In this document: positions 5,256 through 19,391 of the stretch, piece by piece
Layout: the number at the start of each line of letters is the position of its first letter
Position numbering within the stretch: position 1 is the stretch's first letter
Origin: Cyanobacteria bacterium M_surface_10_m2_119
GTDB taxonomy: Bacteria; Cyanobacteriota; Cyanobacteriia; PCC-6307; Cyanobiaceae
Direction of reading: 5' to 3'
DNA: 39,174 nt
Assembly: GCA_016882525.1 (NCBI GenBank)
Contig: VGPU01000020.1
Coordinates: 1 to 39,174 of the forward strand
The notes under the pieces: generated by a model
The model's database searches: none
Told to the model about the DNA's origin: nothing
What the model saw: only the letters and a program-made list of their open reading frames with translations
Translations under genes and position numbers: made by a program

Positions 5256-6950
5256 TCAGGCGGCCCGTTCCCGCTCCAGCAGGCTGGCGGCGTAGCGGCG
5301 GGCCTCGCCGGAATCGCCGCCGGCCAGTTCCACCAATTCGGCCTGACGGGCCTGGGCATCCCGCAGTTGGGACACTCGCGTGTGGGTGCTGCCGCCCATC
5401 ACCTCCTTGGCCACGCGGTAGTGGTGATCGGCGGCGGCCGCCACCAGCGGCTGGTGGGTGACGCAGAACACTTGGCGCTGCTCGGCCAGCCTGCGCAGCA
5501 GCTCGGCCATGGCACCGCTGACGCGGCCGCTCACACCGGCGTCGATCTCATCGAACAGCAGGGTCACATGCGGATCGGCCGCCGCCAGGCAGGTTTTCAG
5601 GGCCAGCAGGAAACGGCTCATCTCACCGCCGGAGGCCACCTCCGCCAGCGGCGCCAGCGGCTGGCCGGGGTTGGCGGAAAACAGGAACTGCACCGCATCG
5701 GCCCCCTCCTCCGCCGGTGCAGCCGGTTCGATCGCCACGCTGAAGCGCACGTTGGCCAGGCCCATCGGCCGCAACGCCGCCATCAGCTGCTGCTCCAGCT
5801 GCCGGGCAGCGGTGTGGCGAGCGGCGCTGAGGGCCGCGTTGGCCTGGTCGCGGCTGGCGGCGGCGGCGGCCTCCTGGGCCTCCAGGGCCACCAGGCTGGC
5901 CTCCACCCCACCGGGTGCCAACTGCTCGCGCAGGGCATCGCGCCAGGCGATCAAGGCCGCCAGGTCCTTGCCGTGGCGGCGCTCCAGGGCCTTGAGCTGG
6001 GCGATCCGCTCCTGCAGCTCCGCCAGGCTGTCTGGATCGCTCTCCAGGGCTGTGCCGTAGCGATCGAGATCGCGAGCCAGATCCTGCAGCTGCGCCAGGG
6101 CATCGCTGCAGCGTCCCGCCAGCTCGGCCGCCTCGGGATCGAGCTGCTGCATCTGAGCCAGCTCCTGCTCGCACACCCCCAGGTGATCCAGCACCGAAGG
6201 AGCCTCCTCCGCGCCGTCCACAAGCCGCCCCAGCAGGGTCATCACCCCCTGCTGCAGCCGCACCCCATGGGCCAGGCGGTTCTCCTCCGCCTGCAGCCGC
6301 TCGCGCTCAGCCGGATCCTGCAGCCGCGCCGCCTCCAGATCCTCCAGCAGCTGCTCCTGGCGTTCGCGCTCCCGCTGCAGCTGTTCGGCATTGGCCCGGG
6401 CCGCCTGCAGTGCTGCAGCGGCCTGGCGCCAGGCGCGATAGACGGCCTGCACCGGCGGCAGCAGCGATTGCAGCGGGTCACCGGCGAAGCGATCCAGCCA
6501 GCGACGCTGCTGCCCCGGCCGTGCCAGCTGCTGCGTCTGCCCTTGCACCGTGAGATCGAGCAGCAGCGGCCGCAACTCCTGGATCTGGCTGCGGTTCACG
6601 GCCACACCATTCAGGCGATGGCGGCTGGCCAGGCGCCCCTCGTTCAACCGCCACTCCCGGCTGATCAGGATCTCCCCCTCCTCCGGCTCCAGCTGCTGCT
6701 GCTCCAGCCAGGCCTGCAGCGGCGGGCTCAGGCTGAAGCTGGCCTCGATCAAGCCGCGATTGGCCCCCTGGCGCAGCAGCCGCGGCCCGGAGGCGGCACC
6801 GGTGCTGCCGGCCAGCAGGGCATCGAGCGCATCCAGCAGGATCGATTTACCCGCACCGGTTTCCCCGGTGAGCACCGTGAGGCCGCCCGAGAAGCTGAGC
6901 TCCAGCCGCTCGATCAGGGCGATGTTCTCCAGCTTCAGGCCGGTGAGCAC
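5256..6950 (-). CDS. recN: DNA repair protein RecN
   Basis: RecN is an SMC-like ATPase that helps repair double-strand breaks. The 564-residue protein opens with LTGLKLENIALIERLELSF and the Walker A motif LTGETGAGKS near residue 30. A long, Gln/Leu/Ala/Arg-rich coiled coil occupies roughly residues 150-370. The ABC signature SGGEMSRFLLALK and Walker B (LLFDEIDAGVSG) follow, then a D-loop/His region (FCVTHQPLVAAAADHHY). Length is normal for the family. The start is GTG (6948-6950), placed to match the family N-terminus. A LexA-like word and a -10-like box precede it, which fits SOS control. It is transcribed towards uvrA. Confidence 0.97.
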   Translation of the reverse strand: MLTGLKLENIALIERLELSFSGGLTVLTGETGAGKSILLDALDALLAGSTGAASGPRLLRQGANRGLIEASFSLSPPLQAWLEQQQLEPEEGEILISREWRLNEGRLASRHRLNGVAVNRSQIQELRPLLLDLTVQGQTQQLARPGQQRRWLDRFAGDPLQSLLPPVQAVYRAWRQAAAALQAARANAEQLQRERERQEQLLEDLEAARLQDPAERERLQAEENRLAHGVRLQQGVMTLLGRLVDGAEEAPSVLDHLGVCEQELAQMQQLDPEAAELAGRCSDALAQLQDLARDLDRYGTALESDPDSLAELQERIAQLKALERRHGKDLAALIAWRDALREQLAPGGVEASLVALEAQEAAAAASRDQANAALSAARHTAARQLEQQLMAALRPMGLANVRFSVAIEPAAPAEEGADAVQFLFSANPGQPLAPLAEVASGGEMSRFLLALKTCLAAADPHVTLLFDEIDAGVSGRVSGAMAELLRRLAEQRQVFCVTHQPLVAAAADHHYRVAKEVMGGSTHTRVSQLRDAQARQAELVELAGGDSGEARRYAASLLERERAA

Positions 6951-6964
6951 ACGCGCCCCTGAGT

Positions 6965-6978
6965 GAAACGGATGTACT
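6965..6978 (-). promoter_or_regulatory. Possible LexA (SOS) box upstream of recN
   Basis: On the minus strand the word AGTACATCCGTTTC matches 12 of 14 positions of the cyanobacterial LexA consensus RGTACNNNDGTWCB as I remember it. It lies just downstream of a -10-like box and 14 bases before the recN GTG, a position where a bound repressor would block transcription start. The second half-site is imperfect, so this is suggestive only. Confidence 0.4.
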
Positions 6979-6982
6979 GGAG

Positions 6983-6988
6983 AGCATA
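6983..6988 (-). promoter_or_regulatory. Possible -10 element for recN
   Basis: TATGCT on the minus strand lies 33 bases upstream of the recN start and immediately upstream of the LexA-like word. It fits the TAnnnT form seen before several other genes in this window. Confidence 0.4.
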
Positions 6989-7016
6989 GCGGCCCTGGCC
7001 CGCCGGCGCCAGGGGC

Positions 7017-8753
7017 TCACGCCAGCCGAGTTGGAGAGCACCGCCGGAAACGATCGATCTCCAGGTCCAGAACGCCAGCACCAATCCCGAGGGCCTCAGC
7101 CAGGGAACGCAGGAGGCGATCCTCTTGAGGCTCTATTTCGCCATCGGAGCAGGCCACCCGAAAGGCAGATTCCAGGATCAGCTCGCGGGCGTTGTCGTCG
7201 AGCAGGGGTCTGTCGCAGCGAAGCTGGCGCAGCAGAACATCAACCGGATCAGCAGCAGCGACCTGAGCAACCATGGAGCCAGCCAACCGCCGAAGCTCAT
7301 CACGATCCAGAGGCGCACCCATGAGCTCGGTATAAATGCAAGCCATGGCCTCGATTTCAGGATCCTCGATCTCTCCATCAGCGAGAGTAATCGCAAGCAT
7401 GCTGTTCAACATGCGCTCCCGCACCAGCAAGGCGGTGCGATCCCCACATTGTGCACCCCATCGCAGATCACTGAGATCACGCTTCTTGCGATTCGTCTGT
7501 GATTCACGCGGATCGCGCTTACAGCCACTGCGCCCACCGGAGAGACTGTCGTACATGTGAAAGGTGAAGCGATCAACCAATTCACGACAGAATCCAACCC
7601 CCCGAACGGAATTACCATAGGCATCCAGCCGAGGGGAAAAGGTGGCGATCCCCATCAGATTAGGAACCACAACCATCACAGCACCGGCAACACCCGACTT
7701 CGCAGGCAGGCCAATCTCAATGGTAAAGGAGCCTGCATTGTCATACATGCCTGCAGCCTGCATCACCGAAAGAGTGCGCTTGACGACCTCAGTGTCCAGA
7801 ACCTGGACACCACTGATGGGACATACTCCACCGTTGGCGAGGGTTGCAGCAGCAACTGAAAACATGCGGGCCGTCATTTCAATACTGCAGCAGGATAGGT
7901 AAACATCCATCATCAAGTGCAGATCAACACCCCGGGGCAAACCCATGCGACCACGCAGCAAATAGGCAATAGCAAAATTAGTATCAGCCGTTTCCCGTTC
8001 AGAGAGCATCGTTTCCTCGCTGAAGCGCACATCGCCAAGACCACCACAGAGATCACTCCAGAGATCCATCAGTTTCTGTGTGATCTGGCGTGAGTTCAGG
8101 CCTGGCGTGGCCGACGCCACAATGCCTGCAACAATAATGGCACCAGCATTCACGCAAGGGTTGTAGGGGCGTTGATCAGGCAGGAGCTCCAGAGAATTGA
8201 ATGGCCGGCCAGAAGGCTCCACACCAACGAACTGATGCGTGAAGCCAACACCCTCTGTGGCGAGGGAATAAGCATAGGTCAACGGCTTGGAAACAGATTG
8301 AATAGAATGATAAATATCAACATCACCAATCGCCAGGCGTTGGCCATCCACACTACACACAGCCACACCCCAGGGTTCTGAATCAGCATCACGGAGAATC
8401 GGGATATAGTCGGCATTCGCACCGCTGCGGTCAGGGGCGACGGATTTGTAGATAGCGTGAATGTCGGCGCAGAAGTCCTGCCACTCTGGAATCACGAGCT
8501 GGCTGTTAAAAGCCCGCTTCAGCATCAAGGCTTCATCACACACAATTCGGCCGAATGTTTGACCATCAATCGGGCCATCACCCATCTCAGCCAACCGGGC
8601 CATGGTGATCTGCAGGCGCCGATCATCGAGCCGCAGGCCACTCGCCTCAATCCGCTCTTGAATCCGGCCAGCCGTTGTACTTCCCTGATCAGCTACGGAA
8701 TCAAACAGCCCTTGCAAAACCTCTTGCACAACGCGCCTAAGCATGAAGGCCAA
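7017..8753 (-). CDS. glsA: Glutaminase (animal kidney-type-like) with C-terminal TerB-like domain
   Basis: Glutaminase hydrolyses glutamine to glutamate and ammonia. Residues ~1-80 match the helical EF-hand-like N-terminal domain of animal kidney-type glutaminase (RIQERIEASGLRLDDRRLQ). Residues ~85-400 are the serine-dependent, beta-lactamase-fold catalytic domain: ADYIPIL (Tyr116), catalytic QSVSKP (Ser153-x-x-Lys156), YNPCVNAGAI (Asn202), SERETADTNFAIAY, CGMYD-like GMYDNAG and LPAKSGVAG. From ~446 to the end there are two acidic ADGEIEDPE/SDGEIEPQE helical repeats typical of TerB-like domains, replacing the ankyrin repeats of the animal enzyme. The TTG start at 8753 has an AGGAG nine bases upstream; ATG 8744 is an alternative. 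No signal peptide is visible, so it is probably cytosolic. It is the last gene of an apparent cheW-cheR-channel-glutaminase operon. GC is locally low (24 of 60 bases in 8281-8340). Confidence 0.93.
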   Translation of the reverse strand: MAFMLRRVVQEVLQGLFDSVADQGSTTAGRIQERIEASGLRLDDRRLQITMARLAEMGDGPIDGQTFGRIVCDEALMLKRAFNSQLVIPEWQDFCADIHAIYKSVAPDRSGANADYIPILRDADSEPWGVAVCSVDGQRLAIGDVDIYHSIQSVSKPLTYAYSLATEGVGFTHQFVGVEPSGRPFNSLELLPDQRPYNPCVNAGAIIVAGIVASATPGLNSRQITQKLMDLWSDLCGGLGDVRFSEETMLSERETADTNFAIAYLLRGRMGLPRGVDLHLMMDVYLSCCSIEMTARMFSVAAATLANGGVCPISGVQVLDTEVVKRTLSVMQAAGMYDNAGSFTIEIGLPAKSGVAGAVMVVVPNLMGIATFSPRLDAYGNSVRGVGFCRELVDRFTFHMYDSLSGGRSGCKRDPRESQTNRKKRDLSDLRWGAQCGDRTALLVRERMLNSMLAITLADGEIEDPEIEAMACIYTELMGAPLDRDELRRLAGSMVAQVAAADPVDVLLRQLRCDRPLLDDNARELILESAFRVACSDGEIEPQEDRLLRSLAEALGIGAGVLDLEIDRFRRCSPTRLA

Positions 8754-8849
8754 GGCTCCGATCTCCTGAGGGCGCCAGACTGTCGCGCTTGATACGGTTC
8801 GAACTGATCAAAGGGGCAGCATGGAGGCAAGCAATCAGCTACAGCCCAA

Positions 8850-9923
8850 TCAGCCAACGAGAATGGCGTAGGCAATAATGACAGCGTTGATCACCACGTA
8901 ACTGGCCGAAAAGATCGGCAAATACACACGCCGATCCAAAGCCTGAGCACGATCAGCTTGATCGCGCTCGCAACGGAGATAACTGACAATCGCCAGAACC
9001 GTGGAAATGAGAATAAAGAGAATAGCTACAATGTGGATCTGATCGGTGAGCGTGACATCCTCTGACGCACCCAGGGTTGATTCAGCTTGCTGTAGATTAA
9101 CAATAGCAGCAAATAGACAGCCCACGCAAAGACCAGTGCGGCCGCTAACGAGATCCGGCTCACGCGGATCCATGAAGAAAGCCATCGCTGAGATCATCGC
9201 AGCTGCATAGACACCTGTACACATTTTCAGGAAACTGGTGATGCGTGCTCGCCTCAGCTCCAACGTGGCACTGATGCTGCTGATGGCACTACCTCGACCC
9301 ACTGCCAGCGACGGATTTCCGAAATTACTGCCGAGATCGACAGGGATTTCATTCACACGGAAGTTTGAAACCAGCCAGTCGCCCCGACCTATGCGAGGAT
9401 TGAATCCCGAACTCTGGAAATCAGGGCTGATCAGAAACTTGCCCTGGCTAACACCACGCGGCACGATATCAAAACTGATGCGGTGGCGATCAAAGGGAAA
9501 GTTCTGGGCCGACCAGGGATAGAAAAAACTACCTGTGACGCCCAGATCAGACCAATACAGCCCTTTCGTGCCAGGAAATGCCCGTGAGTTGTTGGATTCA
9601 TAGCGGGTCATCACCTCACCCATCGTGATCTCATTGGCATTGGTGATCTCCAGATCCTCAAGCGGTTTAATCACCGCTGTGGGACAGACGCTCCAGAGCC
9701 TCAGTGAGGCATACAGCGATTTCTCACTGAAGTTGAAATCACGCATATCCTCGATGAACACACCCATGCGGCAGGTGGCCAGGGCTGTGTCGACCGACGC
9801 CGGAACCACCGCAGGTGCAGCAAGGCCCCGGCCCAGCAGCAGGGCAGCCAACAGGCTCAGCAGACCCAGGAACAGGACGACACCTCGGCCGACGCCAGGC
9901 ATCCAAAGCCGACGGAGGCTCAT
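8850..9923 (-). CDS. Pentameric ligand-gated ion channel homologue (Cys-loop superfamily)
   Basis: The 357-residue protein has the layout of a bacterial pentameric ligand-gated channel of the GLIC/ELIC/DeCLIC superfamily. A signal peptide lies at ~1-36 (VVLFLGLLSLLAALLLG). An extracellular beta-rich domain (~50-228) contains the hallmark NFPFDRHRISFDI (141-153), the prokaryotic counterpart of the Cys-loop and without the paired cysteines. Four membrane segments follow: M1 ~232-251, M2 ~262-280 (RTGLCVGCLFAAIVN, presumptive pore lining), M3 ~295-316 and M4 ~337-356. The intracellular M3-M4 loop is short, as in bacterial members. The ATG (9921-9923) overlaps the cheR stop as ATGA, implying translational coupling. 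The glutaminase gene begins 96 bases downstream. The ligand and ion selectivity cannot be read from the sequence. It would sit in the cytoplasmic membrane with the sensing domain outside. Confidence 0.85.
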   Translation of the reverse strand: MSLRRLWMPGVGRGVVLFLGLLSLLAALLLGRGLAAPAVVPASVDTALATCRMGVFIEDMRDFNFSEKSLYASLRLWSVCPTAVIKPLEDLEITNANEITMGEVMTRYESNNSRAFPGTKGLYWSDLGVTGSFFYPWSAQNFPFDRHRISFDIVPRGVSQGKFLISPDFQSSGFNPRIGRGDWLVSNFRVNEIPVDLGSNFGNPSLAVGRGSAISSISATLELRRARITSFLKMCTGVYAAAMISAMAFFMDPREPDLVSGRTGLCVGCLFAAIVNLQQAESTLGASEDVTLTDQIHIVAILFILISTVLAIVSYLRCERDQADRAQALDRRVYLPIFSASYVVINAVIIAYAILVG

Positions 9924-11011
9924 CGCTGCCTCCGCTGGCGCAGGCGCTCGAGCCGGCGGATCTGACGCTCGGCCTCCTGAAGGCGACCCAGAGCAACGGC
10001 CAGATCCACCGCCAGTTCAAGCGCCTCGTGGCACCCGGGGTCGAGGTAAAGGCAGCGACGCGCCGCCGCCAGAGCCTCCTCGGCCTGACCTCCCTGACTC
10101 AGTCGCCGTGCCTCAACAAGATGATCTGCCGGCTCCAGGATGGCGCATGCGGGTGTCGGCAACACAGGTCGATCCACGGGCCTCGGAGCTGCATCGGCAG
10201 GCTCAACGGCGATCGGGCGGATGGGTGCAAAGGCAGAGCCGTGCCCTCCCGGCAAGCTGCAAAAGCGATCCAGAGGCACCATCGGCGCCTCAGCTGCCGC
10301 CACCAGAAGCATCCCCTGCGGCTCCAGCCGCGCAGCGATCGCCATCAGTAGATCCAGGCGGGCCTGATCCTCCAAGTACAACATCACATTGCGGCAGAAC
10401 ACCACATGCCAAGGGCCTGGCAGCTGAACGAGCTGCTGCTGAAGTGTGCCCTGGTGAAACCGCACCGCGGCCCTGATCTGCGGGCGCAACCGCCAGTGCC
10501 GGGTGCTGCGGCCTGGCTCCCGCTGAAAGTGACGCTCGAGCAGGCCTGGCTCCAGCCCTCGCAGGGCATGAGCGCCGTAGAGCCCTTCAGCGGCTTTGGC
10601 CAGGGCCACAGCGCTGATGTCGATCGCCTCCACCTGCAGCTGGGCGAGGGGTATCCCCGCCTCCAGCAGAGCGATCACAACCGAATACGGCTCTTCGCCA
10701 CTGGAGCAGCCACAACTGAGCACCCGCAATGGCCGTTGACGCAACCGCACGGTGAGCTGATGCAGCTGCTCGAAGGAGCGAGGCTCGCGCAGGAACCAAC
10801 TCTCACCCACAACGAGGTGCTCGATCAGCTTCTGCTGTTCAGGCCGATCGTGGGGCAGGCGCTGGGCATAGTGCCTGATGCTGGTACAGCCGCTCGGGAT
10901 CAGGCGCTGCTTTACGGCCCGAGCCAGGCGGGAAGAGCCGAGCCGATCCGCCCGCAGCCCCGTGCTCTGAAGCAACCAAAGGCTTAGGGGTTCCAGATCA
11001 GACCCTGCCAT
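9920..11011 (-). CDS. CheR-type MCP methyltransferase with TPR-like tail (WspC-like)
   Basis: CheR methylates glutamates on chemoreceptors using S-adenosylmethionine. Visible features of the 363-residue protein are an N-terminal helical domain, EHLVVGESWFLREP (the methyltransferase entry region), the SAM-binding motif VLSCGCSSGEEPYS, EAIDISAVALAKA and the VVFCRNVMLYL motif. After a Pro-rich linker (~270-300) come helical repeats (LVEARRLSQGGQAEEALAAARRCLYLDPG and following) that look like TPRs. A CheR with a TPR tail is the arrangement of Pseudomonas WspC. The ATG (11009-11011) lies inside the upstream cheW (14-base overlap), and its stop overlaps the channel gene's start. Its likely substrate is the receptor encoded divergently at 11719. 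Confidence 0.93.
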   Translation of the reverse strand: MAGSDLEPLSLWLLQSTGLRADRLGSSRLARAVKQRLIPSGCTSIRHYAQRLPHDRPEQQKLIEHLVVGESWFLREPRSFEQLHQLTVRLRQRPLRVLSCGCSSGEEPYSVVIALLEAGIPLAQLQVEAIDISAVALAKAAEGLYGAHALRGLEPGLLERHFQREPGRSTRHWRLRPQIRAAVRFHQGTLQQQLVQLPGPWHVVFCRNVMLYLEDQARLDLLMAIAARLEPQGMLLVAAAEAPMVPLDRFCSLPGGHGSAFAPIRPIAVEPADAAPRPVDRPVLPTPACAILEPADHLVEARRLSQGGQAEEALAAARRCLYLDPGCHEALELAVDLAVALGRLQEAERQIRRLERLRQRRQR

Positions 11012-11546
11012 TGCCGCCGTCGGCTGCAGGGTCGGCCAGGTCGGTGGCGTTCAGCCCGGTGAGGCCAGCGGCAGCAAGGCGATCACAGAGCAACAACTGA
11101 ATCAGCCCCCGCTCATCCAGGGCAACACCACCCAGGAAGGGGCGCTGGGCTGCAGCACCCTCAGCCGGGCGGAAACTGGCAAGGGGCTTGAGCAGGGTGT
11201 CGGTAACACGCTCAGCCAGAAGCCCAAGGAGCGCGGCTTGGCCATCACTGCCGGTATTGCGGATCATGATGATCCGGCTGCTCAGGTACGCAGCACACGG
11301 TTCACCGGCGATCAGCTGAGTCACATCCACCACCGGTACCACCCGGCCGCGGAAATTGAAGACACCCCGCAGATGATCAGGCGCACCGCTCAGCGGCCGC
11401 AGCAGCACCTGGGGGATCACCTCAACCACGGCCTCTGTCGGAATGGCGTACAGCTGCTCGCCGGCCGCGAGCAGCAGAAGCAGACGCGGCTCCAGGGCTG
11501 AATCGTCTGCCTCAGGTTGCTGGGAGGTTGCAAAGGGTTCCGGCAT
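10998..11546 (-). CDS. CheW-like adaptor protein (WspB-like)
   Basis: CheW adaptors couple receptors to the CheA kinase. The domain begins [20 protein letters not shown] and includes [20 protein letters not shown], the core CheW signature, and ends [17 protein letters not shown] place the start at ATG 11544-11546 (182 residues, near family size). The frame stays open upstream to 11729, but that longer start would overlap the receptor gene and add an unconserved stretch. The gene overlaps cheR by 14 bases and heads the minus-strand operon cheW-cheR-channel-glutaminase. No strong ribosome-binding site is visible, so the exact start is uncertain. Confidence 0.88.
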
Positions 11547-11718
11547 GAAGGCCTGGTGCGCAGACAGAGGCAACCGCAGCGGGTCCACCTTGCTCTCTTC
11601 CTGGCGTCGCGGCAAGCCGAAAGCCGGCACGGTGTGTGTGGATCCCGCAGTCCTGCAGCTTGTCAGCAGCGCCTGGGCTGCGTCAGAAAGGGCGCAGCCC
11701 AGTCCAAACAACCGCCCC
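11547..11718. promoter_or_regulatory. Divergent control region between the two chemosensory operons
   Basis: This 172-base gap separates the starts of cheW (minus) and the receptor gene (plus). It must hold both promoters if the chosen starts are right. It contains a perfect inverted repeat (11673-11702). I could not identify convincing -35/-10 pairs for either direction. Confidence 0.5.
11673..11702. repeat. Perfect inverted repeat, 10-bp arms and 10-base spacer
   Basis: CTGGGCTGCG (11673-11682) is the exact reverse complement of CGCAGCCCAG (11693-11702), with TCAGAAAGGG between. The right arm ends 16 bases before the receptor ATG. It could be an operator for a dimeric regulator controlling both divergent operons, or a hairpin in the receptor mRNA leader. 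No T-run follows, so it is not a standard terminator. Confidence 0.75.
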
Positions 11719-13383
11719 ATGGCCCGCAATCAGTCGATGGAGGCCCGCCTCCGCTATGCCTTCCTGGCCATGGGCGGGTTGTCGCTGCTGTTGGCCATCT
11801 TTGCAATGGTCACGGCCCGAGGACTGGGAAGCCGGATCAAGGAACTCTCAGAGAACCGACTGCCCAGCGTGGACGGCCTCTGGAAGATCAACGAGGGGCA
11901 GACCCAGGTGCAGTCGGCCCAGCGACTGCTGATCGAACCGGAGGAAACCACAAGCGATCGCCAGATTGAACTGGGACGTATCGATGCCGCCTGGAAGCAG
12001 ATCGAAGAGGGCCGACATCAGTACGAAGCCACTGAGGCGGATGCCGAAGAGACGGCCTTGTATGCGCGCTTCCGCGACCGCTGGCAGGCCTGGCAGGACA
12101 GCCACCGCCAACTGATGCGCCGGATCAGCGACAACATGCTGGCCCCCGGCGCCAAGGCGGGTCCGGATCTGCGCGCTGCACTGAAGCAGCAGAGCGCCTC
12201 GTACCAGGCTGCTGAGGAAGCCCTGCTGGCAGTGATCCGGTTCAACCAGGATGTGGCCTCCAAAGAAGCGGCTGCCGCTGAAGCCAGCGTGAACCAGGCC
12301 CAGTTCTGGTCGCTCGTGATGATCGTGCTTTCCCCCGCCATCGCCCTGGGAGCCAGCAGCTATTTCACCCGCACGATCGCCCGCCCACTCGGCAGCCGGA
12401 TCGCCGTCGTGGTGGACGCCGCCGAGCAGATCGCTGGCGGCGACCTACGCAACAACCTGCCGGACACCGATGCCGTTGATGAATTGGGTCAGCTGCAGAA
12501 CGCCTTCCATCGCATGGGCGGCAACCTGACCCGACTGGTGAGCGAAATCCAGCGCTCCGGTGTACAGATCAACACTGCCGCCACCCAGATCGCCTCCGCC
12601 GGCCGGCAACTCGAGGCCACCGTGGCGGAACAGTTGGCCAGCACCAATGAGGTGAGCGCCACCAGCCAGGAGATCGCCGCCACCTCACGCGCCCTGGTGC
12701 AGACGATGGGTGAGGTGGACCGCCAGGCCAGCGACACCGCCGGCGCCGCAGCCCGCAGCCAGGACGATCTCAACCGGATGGCGGCGATGATGCGCGGCCT
12801 AGCAGCCTCCACAGCTGAAATCTCCGCCAGGCTCGACACGATGAATGAGCGGGCCAGCAGCATCGGCAGCGTGGTGTCCACCATCACCAAGGTGGCGGAC
12901 CAGACCAATCTGCTATCGCTGAACGCGGCCATCGAAGCCGAAAAGGCCGGTGAATACGGCGCTGGCTTTGCCGTGGTAGCCCGCGAGATCCGCCGCCTGG
13001 CTGACCAGACCGCCGTCGCCACCCTCGAAATCGAGCAGATGGTGCGTGAGATGCAGGCGGCCGTGACTGGTGGTGTGATGGAGATGAATCGCTTCAGTTC
13101 CACCGTGGCGACATCCGTGGACGATGTGGTGCGGGTGAGCGATCAGGTCGAGGCCGTGATCCAACAGGTGCAAGGACTTGGACCCAAGTTCCAGCAGGTG
13201 GGTGAAGCGGTGCAGCAGCAATCGGAGGGTGCCCAGCAGATCAGCGAGGCGATGGGCCAGCTCAGCGAAGCGGCCCAGCAAACTTCCGACGCCATCAGCG
13301 ACACCAATTCCAGCCTGGTTCAACTGGAGGATTCGGCCCAGGTGTTGCGCCGGGAACTCTCCCAGTTCCAAGTGACGGGCTGA
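11719..13383 (+). CDS. Methyl-accepting chemoreceptor (WspA-like)
   Basis: This is a membrane chemoreceptor of 554 residues from ATG 11719. TM1 is at ~13-33 ([19 protein letters not shown]). A helical periplasmic four-helix-bundle-like sensor domain spans ~40-190, and TM2 ~195-215. HAMP follows at ~215-270 ([11 protein letters not shown]...AGGDL...DELGQL), then a long cytoplasmic coiled coil. The tip [20 protein letters not shown] with [20 protein letters not shown] matches the WspA subgroup better than the usual EAARAGE...AEEVRKLAE type, and [12 protein letters not shown] and [11 protein letters not shown] also fit WspA. In Pseudomonas, WspA responds to surface contact or envelope stress. 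Here the stimulus is unknown. It heads a tight plus-strand operon with cheW, cheA and cheB. Confidence 0.93.
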
Positions 13384-13389
13384 TCGGTC

Positions 13390-14043
13390 ATGCACGACTG
13401 CTGGAATCAGATCGGCGTTGGCGGCGACCGCTCCTGCGCCACCCTGAACGATGTGGTGCACTGCCACAACTGCGCCGTTTACTCCTCAGCGGGGCGCAGC
13501 CTGCTGGAGCGCCAACCGCCGGCCGACTACCTCCCGGGCTGGACCTCCGTACTCGCCGATGGCAGCGGCGCAGAGCGGGTGGTGACAGGCCAGCAGGCCC
13601 TGAACCTGATGGTGTTCCGCATCGGCGAAGAGGTGCTGGCCCTGCCGCTGGAGCTGCTCCAGGAGGTAACCCCACCGAGCGACATCCACAGCGTTCCGCA
13701 CCGAAGCAACGGCACCTTTCTCGGGCTGGTGAACATTCGCGGCGAGATCCTGCTGGCCGCCTCATTGCGGCGGCTGCTTGACCTGCCAGCCGCCAGCACG
13801 CCCCCTGCCGCAGGTCAACGCATGGCCGTCACCGCAGCCGGGGAGGAGCAGTGGGTGATCGCCATCGATGAAGTGCTGGGTATTCACCTCTGCAGTCCGG
13901 ACGACCTGGAACCCCCTCCGGTGGTCCACAGCGCCGCCGACGCCCTCACCCAAGCCCTGTTCGCCTGGAAGGATCGGCGGGTGGCACTGCTCGATGGGCC
14001 ACGACTGTTGAACAGCCTGCGCCGGCAGGTCAGCCAGCCATGA
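13390..14043 (+). CDS. CheW-like adaptor with N-terminal Cys-rich extension (WspD-like)
   Basis: The 217-residue protein has an N-terminal extension, MHDCWNQIGVGGDRSC with VVHCHNCAVYSSAG, followed by a CheW domain (LNLMVFRIGEEVLALPLELL, then FLGLVNIRGEILLAASL). The CWN.IG..GD.SC and HC.NC.VY pattern is, as I recall it, the mark of WspD-type adaptors. The four cysteines could bind a metal, but this is not established here. The start ATG 13390 is six bases after the receptor stop, and the stop overlaps the cheA start as ATGA, so the operon is tightly coupled. Having two CheW proteins in one system also matches Wsp. Confidence 0.9.
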   Translation: MHDCWNQIGVGGDRSCATLNDVVHCHNCAVYSSAGRSLLERQPPADYLPGWTSVLADGSGAERVVTGQQALNLMVFRIGEEVLALPLELLQEVTPPSDIHSVPHRSNGTFLGLVNIRGEILLAASLRRLLDLPAASTPPAAGQRMAVTAAGEEQWVIAIDEVLGIHLCSPDDLEPPPVVHSAADALTQALFAWKDRRVALLDGPRLLNSLRRQVSQP

Positions 14044-16277
14044 ATGCCGCCGAAGAGCAACGGCGAAATCTCGAGCTGTTCGCCGAAGAGCTGGCGGATC
14101 AGCTGACCCTCCTCAGCACAAGCCTGTTGCAGCTGGAGAACGATGCGAACAGCCCCGGCTGCCGCGAGAACCTGATGCGAGCTGCCCACACGGTGAAGGG
14201 TGCAGCACGAATGGTTGGTCTTCAGCCGATTGAAGCCCTGGCCCACGCGATCGAAGAACTGCTCACGAGCCCGGCCATTGAGCTGGCAGGCCAGGCCCTG
14301 GATCCGGAGATGGTGACGCTCCTGCTGCGGGCCTTTGATGAGCTGGCAACCGTGGGGCAGGGCAAGCCGGAGCTCTTGCCGGTTCGCCTTGATCAGCAGG
14401 CTCAGCAGCTCGAGAGCCTTCGCGGCGCCTTGCTGGCTCGGGCTAGGGGGTCCACCGCGGATCCCTCGGCCCCTGAAGCTGGACTTGAACCAGCCCCCGC
14501 TCCACCAACGGCAACACCGGAGCGGGTTGTGAAGGTGGACGCCCAGCAACTGAATCGCATCGCTGCCCTGGCCGGTGAGTCGATGGTGGCGGTGCGTTGG
14601 CTGCAACCCTTCGCCGATGGCCTGCAGCAGCTGCGGAGCCGGCAGCGGGAACTGGACCAGCTGCTCGCCCGCTGGCAACCGCAGCCAGGGCACGAGAACC
14701 AGCTGGCCATGATCCTGGAGAAACAGCAGCAGTGCCAGCAACTTCTGCTGCACCAACTCGACGAGCTCGAAGCGTTCGCCCGCCGCTCAAACACCATCGC
14801 CCATCGGCTTTATGGCGAGGTGCTCAACGCCAACATGCGCCCCTTCCACGAGGGATTGGTGGGTCTGCCCAGGCTGGTACGGGATCTGGCAAGCAGCCTG
14901 GGCAAACGCGTACGGCTCGAGCTTGTAGGCCGATCCACCCTGGTGGATCGCGACATCCTGCGGCGGCTTGAAGCACCGATCAACCATGCCGTACGCAATG
15001 CCATCGACCATGGCCTCGAAACACCGCAAGGTCGCCGCTCCGCCGGCAAACCCGAGCAGGGCCTGCTGCGACTGGAGGCCCTGCATCGGGGCGGCATGCT
15101 CAGCATCACCATCCGCGACGACGGCGCCGGAGTGGATCTCGCTGCCGTGCGTGAGCGGGCGATTGAGCGGGGGCTGATCGACAAGGGCTGCGTCGATGAC
15201 CTCGACGAGGCCGAGCTGCTGGAGCTGTTGCTGCGTCCCGGCTTCTCCACAGCCCGCCAGGTGAGTGAGGTATCAGGTCGCGGCGTGGGCCTGGATGTAG
15301 TGCAGACCATGGTGCGCGAGGTGGGCGGCTCCCTGCGCCTGAGCAGCACCACCGGAGGTGGGACCAGCCTGCACTTTCAGCTGCCACTGACACTCTCGGT
15401 GGTCCGCACCCTGTTGGTGCAGATCGGTGGTGAAACCTATGCGGTGCCACTGGCCCGACTTGATCGGATCGTGGCCATCCCGGCAACCGCCATTGATCGC
15501 CATGAAGGGAAAGCAAGCCTGCAGTGGAACGGGCGGGCCATCGGGCTGATTCCCTCGCAGCCCCTGCTGGGACTGCCCCTGCCTGGCGGATTGGCCGATC
15601 CCCTGCCGGTGCTTGTGCTGAGCGACCAGGGCCAAAGCTATGGGCTCGTGGTGGAGCAGGTTCTGGGGGAGCAGGATCTGGTGGTACGCCCCCTTGACCA
15701 ACGCCTGGGTGCGGTGCCTGGGCTGGCCTCAGCAGCCCTGCTGGGGGACGGCGCACCGATCCTGGTTCTCGATGTGGGCGACCTCTTGCGACTGGTGCAG
15801 GAGGCTTTGGCGAGTGGAGCCCTGCCACCACTCCCTCAGCGAGAGGGCGCACCAACCTCCACTCCGACGATCACCACACCCACGGCAACGCCGTCACACC
15901 AGCCGAGAACGGTGCTGGTGGTGGATGACAGCCGCATGGTGCGTGAGTCCCTGGGACGCACACTGGAGGGGCAGGGCTACCGGGTGGCCAAGGCAGTCGA
16001 TGGTCAGGACGCGCTGGAACAGCTACAGAGCGGTGGCTTCGACCTGGTCGTGAGCGATGTGGAGATGCCCCGCCTCGATGGCTTCAATCTGGTGCGCCGC
16101 CTTCGGGCGCTGGACCAACCGCTGGCCTCGCTACCGGTGCTGATCCTGTCATCGCGAGACCAAGAGTCCGACCGGATCACAGGAATGGAGGCGGGGGCCG
16201 ATCGCTACCTGGCGAAGGGAGGCTTCAGTGAGGACAGCCTGCTGAAGGCAGTTCAGGATCTGATCGGACCACCCTGA
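14040..16277 (+). CDS. Hybrid CheA histidine kinase with C-terminal receiver (WspE-like)
   Basis: The 745-residue protein is a CheA-REC hybrid. It has an HPt domain with H-box AAHTVKGAARM (His50), a short linker without an evident P2 domain, and a dimerisation helix pair (~205-250). The ATPase domain shows an N-box at ~312 (INHAVRNAIDHG), G boxes DDGAGVDL and GRGVGLDVVQTMV, and GGGTSLHFQLPLTL. A CheW-like regulatory domain (~455-590) follows (TYAVPLARLDRIV). A Ser/Thr/Pro-rich linker leads to a receiver (~620-743) with phospho-acceptor Asp673 in LVVSDVEMP and conserved DD in VLVVDDS. Length and order match Pseudomonas WspE. The start overlaps the upstream cheW stop; cheB begins 15 bases after the TGA. 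The protein would phosphorylate its own receiver and CheB. Confidence 0.95.
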   Translation: MNAAEEQRRNLELFAEELADQLTLLSTSLLQLENDANSPGCRENLMRAAHTVKGAARMVGLQPIEALAHAIEELLTSPAIELAGQALDPEMVTLLLRAFDELATVGQGKPELLPVRLDQQAQQLESLRGALLARARGSTADPSAPEAGLEPAPAPPTATPERVVKVDAQQLNRIAALAGESMVAVRWLQPFADGLQQLRSRQRELDQLLARWQPQPGHENQLAMILEKQQQCQQLLLHQLDELEAFARRSNTIAHRLYGEVLNANMRPFHEGLVGLPRLVRDLASSLGKRVRLELVGRSTLVDRDILRRLEAPINHAVRNAIDHGLETPQGRRSAGKPEQGLLRLEALHRGGMLSITIRDDGAGVDLAAVRERAIERGLIDKGCVDDLDEAELLELLLRPGFSTARQVSEVSGRGVGLDVVQTMVREVGGSLRLSSTTGGGTSLHFQLPLTLSVVRTLLVQIGGETYAVPLARLDRIVAIPATAIDRHEGKASLQWNGRAIGLIPSQPLLGLPLPGGLADPLPVLVLSDQGQSYGLVVEQVLGEQDLVVRPLDQRLGAVPGLASAALLGDGAPILVLDVGDLLRLVQEALASGALPPLPQREGAPTSTPTITTPTATPSHQPRTVLVVDDSRMVRESLGRTLEGQGYRVAKAVDGQDALEQLQSGGFDLVVSDVEMPRLDGFNLVRRLRALDQPLASLPVLILSSRDQESDRITGMEAGADRYLAKGGFSEDSLLKAVQDLIGPP

Positions 16278-16292
16278 GCGCTGCAGCAGGCC

Positions 16293-17318
16293 ATGCGGAT
16301 CGCCCTGGTGAACGACACCGCCGTGGCCCTGGAGGCCCTGAAGCGCGTGCTGGCCACCGCACCGACACACACCGTGGCCTGGTGCGCCCGCAATGGGGAG
16401 GAGGCGGTGCGGCGTGCAGCACTGGACCGGCCCGATCTGATCCTCATGGATCTGCTCATGCCAGGCATCAACGGGGTGGAGGCAACGCGCCGGATCATGG
16501 CCACAACCCCCTGCCCGATCCTGGTGGTCACCGCCAGCGTGGGCTCCAGGTCGGCTCTGGTGTACGAAGCCCTGGGGGCCGGTGCGCTCGACGCCATCCG
16601 CACGCCATCACTGGTGGCCCCCGCCGCCCAGGCGGGGGCTGATCTGCTGCAACGCATCCGCCGGCTCGAGCGGCTCACACGGCCGCTGACCAGCCCTGCC
16701 GCTTCAGCAACGCCACCGCTTGTAGCCATTGGATCCTCCACCGGCGGCCCAGCAGCCTTGGTGAGATGTCTGGGGCAGTTACCGGTGGATCTCGGCGCCG
16801 CTGTGCTGGTGGCTCAACACATCGAAGCCCAGTTCGCACCCGGGCTGGCCCGCTGGCTCAACGACCAGATCCCGCTGCCCGTGCAGATCGTGCATGAAGG
16901 GGATCCGCTCCAGAGCGGGGTGGTGCAGCTGGCTGCCACGAACCACCATATTGTGCTCAAGCCCGATGGACGGCTCGGCTACAGCCCGGAGCCACGTCAG
17001 GAGCCCTACCGACCGTCGGTGGATGCTCTGTTCCGCAGCCTGCTGCAACCCTGGTTGAAACCGGGACATGCAGTGCTGCTCACCGGCATGGGCCGCGATG
17101 GCGGTCAAGGCCTGCTCGACCTGCGCCGGGCGGGATGGCACACCATCGCCCAGGACGAGGACAGCTGCGCTGTGTACGGCATGCCGAAAACGGCCGTGGA
17201 GCTTGGAGGAGCCATCGAGGTGCTGCCCCCGGAAGCCATCGGCCGTCGCTTGCGAAGCCTGATCGCTCCTCGCCGGTCGCCGCAGCAACTACCGCGGCAG
17301 CAGGAAGCGGCCCCTTAG
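16293..17318 (+). CDS. CheB-type methylesterase response regulator (WspF-like)
   Basis: CheB removes methyl groups from chemoreceptors when phosphorylated. The N-terminal receiver begins MRIALVNDTAVALEALKRVL, with the VND opening characteristic of WspF, and carries Asp53 in LILMDLLMPGINGVEATRR. The C-terminal esterase domain shows the catalytic serine in IGSSTGGPAAL (Ser149), histidine in VAQHIEAQF, and aspartate in TGMGRDGGQGL; YGMPKTAVELG is the usual end motif. All catalytic residues are present, so with the CheR the set looks competent for adaptation. It is the last gene of the plus-strand operon; the TAG at 17316-17318 is 30 bases before the ABC1 kinase gene. Confidence 0.95.
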   Translation: MRIALVNDTAVALEALKRVLATAPTHTVAWCARNGEEAVRRAALDRPDLILMDLLMPGINGVEATRRIMATTPCPILVVTASVGSRSALVYEALGAGALDAIRTPSLVAPAAQAGADLLQRIRRLERLTRPLTSPAASATPPLVAIGSSTGGPAALVRCLGQLPVDLGAAVLVAQHIEAQFAPGLARWLNDQIPLPVQIVHEGDPLQSGVVQLAATNHHIVLKPDGRLGYSPEPRQEPYRPSVDALFRSLLQPWLKPGHAVLLTGMGRDGGQGLLDLRRAGWHTIAQDEDSCAVYGMPKTAVELGGAIEVLPPEAIGRRLRSLIAPRRSPQQLPRQQEAAP

Positions 17319-17348: not shown

Positions 17349-19391
17349 ATGCCGGCCATCACCCCCGCGGAACAGGCTCTGGCCGCCATGCGCGCCGCCG
17401 TGTTCGGCACCGATCCGATGGCACCACCACCACCGGTGGAACCCACGATCAGCGCCCCGGAACGCCCGTCCGCCCCGGTGCATGCCAATCCCGCCGGCAA
17501 CGCCGCCGAACTCAGCGATTTCATCGAAGCCGCCGGCCTGTTGGAGTACGACCCGGCGGCCATCACCCGCATCTATTCCGGCCACCCGGGGCGCCTGCTG
17601 CGCCGGATCTCGCAGACGCTCGTGCCGATCGGCCTCTACCTGCTGGGCGTGGGCCTCGACTGGCTGACCCAGCGCCTCAAGAACCCCGACCATGCCCGGG
17701 CCCGGGCCCGGGAAGCGGCCGACCTGGTGGCCTCCCTCGGCCCCGCCTTCATCAAGGCCGGCCAGGCCCTCTCCACCCGGCCCGACATCGTGCCGCCCCT
17801 GCTGCTGGAGGAGCTGGCCCAGCTGCAGGACCAGCTGCCGGGCTTCGATCCGGCCCTGGCAATGGCCTGCATCGAGGAGGACCTGGGCCAGCCGGTGGAG
17901 GCGATCTACGCCCAGCTCGACCGCGAGCCGATATCGGCGGCGTCGCTCGGACAGGTGCACAAGGGGGTGCTCAGAAACGGCGACAAGGTGGCCGTGAAGG
18001 TGCAGCGGCCGGGGCTGCGCGAGCAGATCACGCTCGATCTCTACATCGTGCGCAACATCGCCGCCTGGCTCAACCGCAACATCGGCCTGATCCGCTCCGA
18101 CCTGGTGGCCCTGATCGACGAGCTGGGCAAGCGGGTGTTCGAGGAGATGGACTACTGCAATGAAGCCGACAACGCCGAGGCCTTCGCCAGGCTCCACGCC
18201 CACAACGCGCGCATCGCCGTGCCCCGCATCTACCGGGAGGCCACCAGCCGCCGGGTGCTGACGATGGAGTGGATCGACGGCGTCAAGCTCACCAACCTGG
18301 CGGCGGTGCGAGGGCTGGGGGTGGATCCGGACGATCTCGTGCAGGTGGGGGTGAACTGCTCCCTGCAACAGCTGCTCGAGCACGGCTTCTTTCACGCCGA
18401 TCCCCACCCCGGCAACCTGCTGGCCCTGGCGGATGGCCGCCTGGCCTACCTCGATTTCGGCATGATGAGCGAGGTGAGCCGCGAGAGTCGCACCGGCCTG
18501 ATCCAGGCGGTGGTGCACCTGGTGAACCGCAACTTCGGCAAGCTCTCCAAGGATTTCGTGGCCCTCGGCTTTCTGGCCGAGGACGTGAACCTCGAGCCGA
18601 TCGTGCCGGCGTTTGAGAGCGTGTTCGGCCAGGCGCTGGAGATGGGCGTGAGCCGGATGGACTTCAAGGCCGTCACCGACGACCTCAGCGGCGTGATGTA
18701 CCGCTTCCCCTTCCGGGTGCCCCCCTACTACGCCCTGATCATCCGCTCGCTGGTGACGCTGGAGGGCATCGCCCTGAGCGTGGATCCCGACTTCAAGATC
18801 CTGGGCGCCGCCTACCCCTACTTCGCCCGCCGGCTGATGGAGGATCCCGACCCCAGCCTGCGGAACAGCCTCAAGGAAATGCTGTTCGACGGCGAGGTGT
18901 TCCGCTGGCAGCGGCTCGACAACCTGATCGCCAGTGCCGCCCAGGGCAGCCAGCTGGATCTTGATGGCCTGCTCGATCAGGTGCTCGATTTCCTGTTCTC
19001 GGCCAATGGAGGGCTGCTGCGCCAGCAACTGGTGGAGGCCCTGGTGCAACGCATCGACGGGCTGGCCTGGCAGACCACCCTGCGACTGGGCAAGCGCCTG
19101 CCGGAGCGGCTGCAGCCCCCGGGGCTGCGGCGCCGGCGCCTGGAGCCCGCCGGCGATCCCCTGCTGGAACTGGAGCCGATCCGCCAGCTGCTCACCATCC
19201 TGCAGGCCCTGCCGGGGTTCGAGCCCCAGCTGCTGCTCAAGCGGCTGCCGCGGCTGGTGGGCGAACCGGAACTGCGGCGGATGGGGGCCGAGCTGGCCCG
19301 GGGCCTGGCCGAACGCAGCCTGGTGCGCCTGCTGCGCGACGTGCTCGTCGACCCCGACCTGCAGAACCGGCCGGCGGTGGCCAGCGCCTGA
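17349..19391 (+). CDS. ABC1/UbiB-type atypical kinase (AarF family)
   Basis: This family (ABC1K/ADCK/UbiB) has a kinase-like fold and supports quinone and prenyl-lipid metabolism in cyanobacteria and plastids. Signature elements in the 680-residue protein are KxGQ (GPAFIKAGQALSTRPD), the Ala-rich loop ISAASLGQVHKG, the Lys in VAVKVQRPG, FEEMDYCNEADNA, FFHADPHPGNLL and the metal Asp in LDFGMMSEV. An N-terminal Pro-rich segment (~20-50) precedes the domain. The C-terminal ~150 residues are Leu/Arg-rich and helical. A start nearer residue 17 is possible. Around 17697-17712 the sequence carries a CCCGGG triplet repeat encoding ARARAR. A TAGCTT box that overlaps the cheB stop could be its -10. DUF1400 and thrC follow on the same strand. 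Confidence 0.93.
   Translation: MPAITPAEQALAAMRAAVFGTDPMAPPPPVEPTISAPERPSAPVHANPAGNAAELSDFIEAAGLLEYDPAAITRIYSGHPGRLLRRISQTLVPIGLYLLGVGLDWLTQRLKNPDHARARAREAADLVASLGPAFIKAGQALSTRPDIVPPLLLEELAQLQDQLPGFDPALAMACIEEDLGQPVEAIYAQLDREPISAASLGQVHKGVLRNGDKVAVKVQRPGLREQITLDLYIVRNIAAWLNRNIGLIRSDLVALIDELGKRVFEEMDYCNEADNAEAFARLHAHNARIAVPRIYREATSRRVLTMEWIDGVKLTNLAAVRGLGVDPDDLVQVGVNCSLQQLLEHGFFHADPHPGNLLALADGRLAYLDFGMMSEVSRESRTGLIQAVVHLVNRNFGKLSKDFVALGFLAEDVNLEPIVPAFESVFGQALEMGVSRMDFKAVTDDLSGVMYRFPFRVPPYYALIIRSLVTLEGIALSVDPDFKILGAAYPYFARRLMEDPDPSLRNSLKEMLFDGEVFRWQRLDNLIASAAQGSQLDLDGLLDQVLDFLFSANGGLLRQQLVEALVQRIDGLAWQTTLRLGKRLPERLQPPGLRRRRLEPAGDPLLELEPIRQLLTILQALPGFEPQLLLKRLPRLVGEPELRRMGAELARGLAERSLVRLLRDVLVDPDLQNRPAVASA

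Follow-up and report, generated by a model that had tools for sequence, protein, structure and literature searches.

A stretch of 39,174 nucleotides (the window) from contig VGPU01000020.1 (C20) in the 2.62-Mb genome (G000) of Cyanobacteria bacterium M_surface_10_m2_119, family Cyanobiaceae, encodes on its minus strand (positions 8850-9923) a protein with the predicted fold of pentameric ligand-gated ion channels (pLGICs), hereafter the channel. A pLGIC-fold protein of this kind is a conserved component of one type of chemosensory gene cluster in cyanobacteria. In the window, the cluster occupies a block (7017-17318) that, according to open reading frame (ORF) coordinates and domain searches, comprises a minus-strand series cheW-cheR-channel-glutaminase and a divergent series of genes for a methyl-accepting chemoreceptor (MCP), a second CheW, a CheA with receiver domain (CheA-REC), and CheB. 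Structural work on nerve receptors relies heavily on bacterial pLGICs as models. Judged by its modelled fold, a relative of the receptor channels of nerve cells would be a constant member of a gene cluster for chemical sensing in some cyanobacteria.

An earlier note on this DNA had suggested that the channel and the chemosensory genes form one unit. This part of the proposal is borne out by their joint distribution and by their contiguity. A profile of channel orthologues matched 22 of the 399 order-level genomes at E<=1e-10; ten genomes scored 600-720 bits, and the next best score was 158. Genome G223 was counted as a carrier on the strength of a 43-residue channel fragment where a contig begins; the contig with its che genes breaks off within cheR. 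The MCP profile (E<=1e-60) selected 11 of the 399 genomes; a close channel orthologue is present in the same 11 and in no others. Among 386 phylum-level genomes, ten matched the channel profile, five of them with at least 260 bits; these five also had the top five scores among the 27 MCP-positive genomes (E<=1e-90). In 14 genomes, a single contig carries the channel together with cheW or cheB at the least, in three arrangements. Its sequence identity across the linked loci is 44-71% in the family of the window and 30-35% beyond it.

The first arrangement, cheW-cheR-channel, was found in 10 loci. The stop codon of cheR overlaps the channel start as ATGA in all ten loci with an intact junction, including the window; in L101 and L102, where the longest ORF extends further upstream, the channel start was set by alignment. 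The second arrangement consists of one or two channel genes followed by cheW-mcp-cheR-mcp-cheW-cheA (G685, G689, and G583), and the third is cheB-channel-channel (G635). These two arrangements represent four genomes from three other families, in which the channel genes share the strand of the neighbouring che genes. With longest-ORF starts, the channel lies 6 bases ahead of cheW in G685 and G689, two overlapping channels lie 181 bases ahead of cheW in G583, and in G635 a pair of channels begins 3 bases beyond cheB. The tandem channels (L096 7511-9596 in G583; L093 9364-11537 in G635) are, within each pair, nearest kin, and the two pairs therefore arose separately. Hetero-pentamers formed from such pairs are conceivable. 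In G685, the cluster looks broken: cheB is present in open pieces (L150 1851-4548) past an intervening 547-residue ORF.

All trees were unrooted, and sequences cut by contig ends were left out: G223 (channel tree), G391 (MCP tree), and G163 (CheA tree). The 16 linked channels group in a single clade (support 99/97). The main groups recur in the channel, MCP, and CheA trees: the window with G032, the genomes of genus g6 with G044, and the other families together. Wsp-type clusters without the channel, which the earlier note listed among the occurrences that would together make the link accidental, do exist in six more distant genomes (G493, G759, G662, G518, G570, and G462). Each of these has an MCP match over the full length (559-638 bits), and the channel profile gave nothing at E<=1e-10; the channel hidden Markov model (HMM) also gave no match at E<=1 in the corresponding stretches, that of G570 being cut by a contig end. 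Their MCPs branch apart from the channel-bearing ones, 7 channel-less rows being split from 14 channel-bearing rows at 99/97. In the CheA tree, two channel-less rows stand without resolution beside four rows from other families.

The channel has no Pfam match (E<=0.01) and no NCBIfam match. Its phmmer match to GLIC is weak (E 0.068). For a relative in G635, TIGR00860 gives E 4.5e-5, with a score well below the cut-off of that model. The identity of the channel rests on its predicted fold. An AlphaFold (AF2) model built from 22 aligned relatives reached a mean predicted local distance difference test (pLDDT) of 82.2 and a predicted template modelling score (pTM) of 0.70. It contains beta strands between residues 49 and 225 and helices at 229-250, 261-284, 292-319, and 323-356, that is, an intact extracellular domain followed by four transmembrane helices (M1-M4), with a predicted M3-M4 link of only about three residues. 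VIA-align superposed the model on GluCl 4tnw_B with Z 23.4 and a root-mean-square deviation of 2.9 over 285 aligned residues at 13% identity, many other rows being tied within 1 of this score. All 50 Foldseek matches listed, and the VIA-align matches listed as well, were pLGICs or pLGIC chimeras. In the model, the channel has the full pLGIC fold; as a member of that family, it would form a pentamer that conducts ions on ligand binding. A hydrophobic helix at its N-terminus is a probable signal peptide.

The extracellular domain carries a PFD motif. Residues P143, D145, and R225 are invariant in 22/22 aligned channels, so that both the acidic residue of the Cys-loop region and the basic residue just before M1, described as features of pLGICs in PMC549065, are present. 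The second transmembrane helix contains SGRTGLCVGCLFAAIVN. Its S-G-R-T-G-L sequence spans about -2' to 3' in the position numbering of M2, and presumably resembles that of glycine and GABA receptors. Cation-selective channels typically carry a ring of glutamates in M2. As a first guess from the sequence, the pore may be anion-selective or weakly selective, because M2 is devoid of such a ring. At 24 positions, at least 15/16 linked channels agree while at most 1/6 unlinked channels do so; these positions include Cys51, Cys80, and Glu319. Glu319, which sits where M3 ends on the cytoplasmic side, is present in 16/16 linked and 0/6 unlinked channels. A disulphide between the two cysteines is only a suggestion.

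Previously described prokaryotic pLGICs (GLIC, ELIC, and sTeLIC) have the same fold and share the PFD motif and the basic pre-M1 residue with the present channel. The linked clade differs from them in its conserved Cys51 and Cys80 and in having no fused sensor domain. On the basis of fusions to PBP, Cache, and MCP-N domains, Tasneem et al. (2004; PMC549065) predicted that such channels act as chemotaxis receptors, and they also predicted operons containing genes for PBP-II or Cache proteins. In contrast to those channels, the present one is tied to a full che cluster; passages retrieved from PMC549065 describe no such cluster, and the term CheR does not occur in its text (CheA and CheW were not searched there). 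No description of a pLGIC in a che cluster was found in the literature at the level of listings and abstracts, subscription papers being mostly outside the search. For the native role of bacterial pLGICs, PMC8449418 goes no further than 'possibly' chemotaxis or quorum sensing. The tie between this channel clade and a single type of chemosensory cluster offers a concrete partner, a set of organisms, and a testable role. Ion flux would join the known currencies of chemosensory arrays.

We favour, with moderate confidence, the reading that the channel serves as a second, ionotropic sensor with input to the chemosensory array. The system would consist of an array of MCP, two CheW, CheA-REC, CheR, and CheB with a dedicated pLGIC-type channel. 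A periplasmic ligand would open the channel pentamer, the MCP/CheA array would read the resulting ion flux or voltage change, and adaptation would proceed via methylation of the MCP by CheR and CheB. An input role is favoured because the modelled extracellular domain is intact, the predicted M3-M4 link is so short, and G583 and G635 each carry two receptors and two channels. Several observations weigh against this reading. G685 and G689 carry two receptors but one channel. The 11 order-level carriers span five genera and are not independent, for which reason no p-value is claimed. G583 joins G685 and G689 in the channel tree (100/100), whereas G635 joins them in the MCP (99/95) and CheA (100/99) trees; some replacement of channels or an error in the trees is possible. 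The selectivity of M2 was read from the sequence via general rules. Finally, the linked stretches yielded no separate receiver-domain effector, which also fits the channel as the output.

This last point stems from a receiver-domain HMM search. In the window, it matched CheA and CheB only. In 13 linked stretches of 12 genomes, it matched CheA, CheB, and one 60-residue ORF (E 0.0062) in G685, which is probably part of the broken cheB. The scan omitted L099, L100, L102, L103, L105, and L150, and in L034, L094, and L095 one of cheA and cheB is partly missing or broken. The channel might itself be the output of the array, whose state would gate it directly via its cytoplasmic end or via contact with CheW or CheA, so that a membrane current would replace a second messenger. 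We regard this as possible though rather doubtful. In two of the six channel-less genomes, cheB is followed by a gene for a further receiver protein, which is REC with a nucleotide-cyclase domain in G518 and a hybrid kinase in G462; the channels of G635 occupy the same slot after cheB. The presence of Glu319 in the linked channels points in the same direction. However, the model has a very short cytoplasmic link, and pLGICs are generally gated from outside. The comparison is also thin, since the other four channel-less stretches gave no receiver domain and no CheA match. Moreover, an orphan regulator elsewhere in the genome is a possible output: 28 GGDEF matches were obtained in the window's genome, none of them on contig C20. 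The further notion that the array uses a channel of the neurotransmitter-receptor type as its effector, turning chemical input into a membrane current with CheR/CheB adaptation and thereby coupling a metabotropic to an ionotropic mode, is tentative and, in our estimation, doubtful.

Alternatively, the channel and the array could be controlled jointly yet act in parallel, with no direct signalling from one to the other; one might, for instance, serve ion or osmotic homeostasis and the other pilus or biofilm behaviour. Genes for ion transport do adjoin some of the linked channels. In G032, kdpA, a gene for a kdpB-like ATPase, kdpC, and a kdpD (L033 11210-16882) follow on the same strand 72 bases past the channel, and in G685 two CrcB-family genes are located just upstream of it, similar ORFs being seen in G689 (L095 8794-9661; L094 10436-11169). 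These neighbours vary by lineage, however, while che genes adjoin the channel in all 14 genomes in which the locus is contiguous, and we consider parallel arms unlikely.

The earlier note had gone further and drawn the glutaminase into the unit, with channel, array, and glutaminase jointly sensing glutamine, glutamate, ammonia, or pH. The gene (7017-8753, minus strand), whose product combines EF-hand_14, Glutaminase, and TerB domains in Pfam, begins 96 bases downstream of the channel. The gap between them (8754-8849) contains no terminator-like site according to a scan of 6900-12000. In that region, a promoter scan revealed no promoter, and the single terminator-like site, fewer than in shuffled sequences, lies inside the glutaminase gene. 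The same-strand gap speaks for joint function, as does the distribution in genus g6, where a glutaminase orthologue is present in 6/7 genomes with the cluster and in 0/7 tested genomes without it. The latter seven, which contain only distant glutaminases or none, represent part of g6. This count stands against a clean dismissal of the glutaminase link; the co-occurrence may be an effect of a subclade.

The wider distribution contradicts such a unit. The survey comprised 15 genomes that carry both the channel and the cluster. Among them, the window's genome and the six g6 genomes have an orthologue of the glutaminase over its full length (>800 bits), only distant glutaminases were detected in G267, G685, and G689, and none at E<=1e-20 in G032, G044, G223, G635, and G583. 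It lies beside the channel in the window only, this adjacency recurring in 0 of the other nine loci with an intact junction. In the four g6 genomes with both genes on one contig, the glutaminase is 11.6-15.8 kb from the channel on the same strand, with other genes between. The congeneric genomes G155, G203, and G221 (in the last as two pieces) encode an orthologue without the cluster. The tree differs as well: by path length, the glutaminase of the window comes closest to that of G221, a placement that is not strongly supported, whereas G032 is the partner of the window in the channel and MCP trees. The glutaminase was rejected as a conserved partner on these grounds and is probably a local passenger or addition beside the channel. 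Joint sensing by the three components is very improbable, and with the glutaminase not part of the unit, glutamine, glutamate, and ammonia are unsupported as signals.

The remaining genes of the cluster agree with the order described in the earlier note, whose overlaps and gap were confirmed to the base when coordinates and domains were rechecked. On the minus strand, the CheW ORF (10998-11729; Pfam CheW E 9.9e-20) overlaps cheR by 14 bases (10998-11011). Its true start is probably near 11546, because the longest ORF would enter the divergent MCP gene. The CheR methyltransferase (9920-11011; E 2.2e-33) shows a weak C-terminal TPR match (TPR_19, E 0.0036, 18 bits, below the cut-off of 25). On the plus strand, the MCP (11719-13383), with its start picked by alignment inside the ORF 11443-13383, consists of a 4HB_MCP_1 sensor, HAMP, and MCPsignal domains in Pfam. 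It is followed by the second CheW (13390-14043; E 4.4e-24), by the hybrid CheA with a C-terminal receiver domain (14040-16277), which holds the H-box (AHTVKG), NAIDHG, and DDGAG motifs, and by the CheB methylesterase with a receiver domain (16293-17318; CheB_methylest E 1e-52).

The label Wsp-like, given to this locus in the earlier note, is apt insofar as an MCP, two CheW, CheR, CheA-REC, and CheB are encoded together; the WspR-type output was not found in the cluster. The Wsp system of Pseudomonas and relatives (PMC8552884) has the same components, including an MCP with a membrane sensor; its CheR (WspC) bears a TPR, for which the present CheR gives just the sub-threshold match noted above. 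The present locus differs from it in having no WspR (receiver-GGDEF) or WspH effector in the cluster, in the divergent cheW-cheR pair, and in the channel. Membership in Wsp was rejected for lack of such an effector. Features in common with the pathways of alternative cellular function, as outlined in PMC3447774, are a CheR with a (weak) TPR match and a hybrid CheA. The same source names cyanobacteria among the hosts of these pathways and multidomain response regulators as a distinctive feature of the class. In contrast, the receiver HMM detected no multidomain response regulator in the linked stretches.

The whole block is set between recN (5256-6950) and an ABC1-kinase gene (17349-19391). These two genes adjoin each other in 10/10 congeneric genomes taken for comparison (G030, G072, G099, G121, G140, G155, G168, G180, G192, and G203); in G180, where ORF picking preferred another frame over recN, the place of this gene was taken from a separate search. 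The block is therefore an insertion. Third-position GC content reaches 0.87-0.92 in eight flanking genes and 0.68 in the outermost one (DUF2252); within the block, the che genes have 0.70-0.82, the channel 0.59, and the glutaminase 0.57. An inserted island with a composition unlike that of the adjoining genes might suggest that the channel merely hitchhikes with it, which is scarcely credible given that the link is kept at the sequence identities quoted above, in three positions, and with ATGA at every intact cheR-channel junction. The right flank encodes, besides the ABC1 kinase, a PALP-family enzyme, the DNA polymerase beta clamp, purL/purF-type enzymes, and gyrase A. The gene beyond recN on the left is presumably uvrA.

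More distant relatives of the channel occur outside chemosensory clusters. A first family search detected some homologue in 44/300 genomes, mostly distant, and 16 neighbourhoods were fetched. Six close orthologues (G032, G163, G267, G279, G261, and G044) sit in the same che cluster, while ten distant homologues showed no MCP, CheW, CheR, or CheB match within the fetched stretches. The same was true of two further unlinked homologues (a second copy in G689, and G753), which makes 0/12 unlinked loci with any of these genes nearby, some stretches being short at contig ends. Receiver-domain proteins are encoded 4-5 kb away from the distant homologues in L043 and L044. The window's genome itself possesses a second, very distant homologue on contig C3 (L047 1886-3256; 22% identity), with no che genes in the fetched stretch. 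Also, 10 plasmid records, eight from Azospirillum and two from Streptomyces, contain matches to the channel at 21-28% identity.

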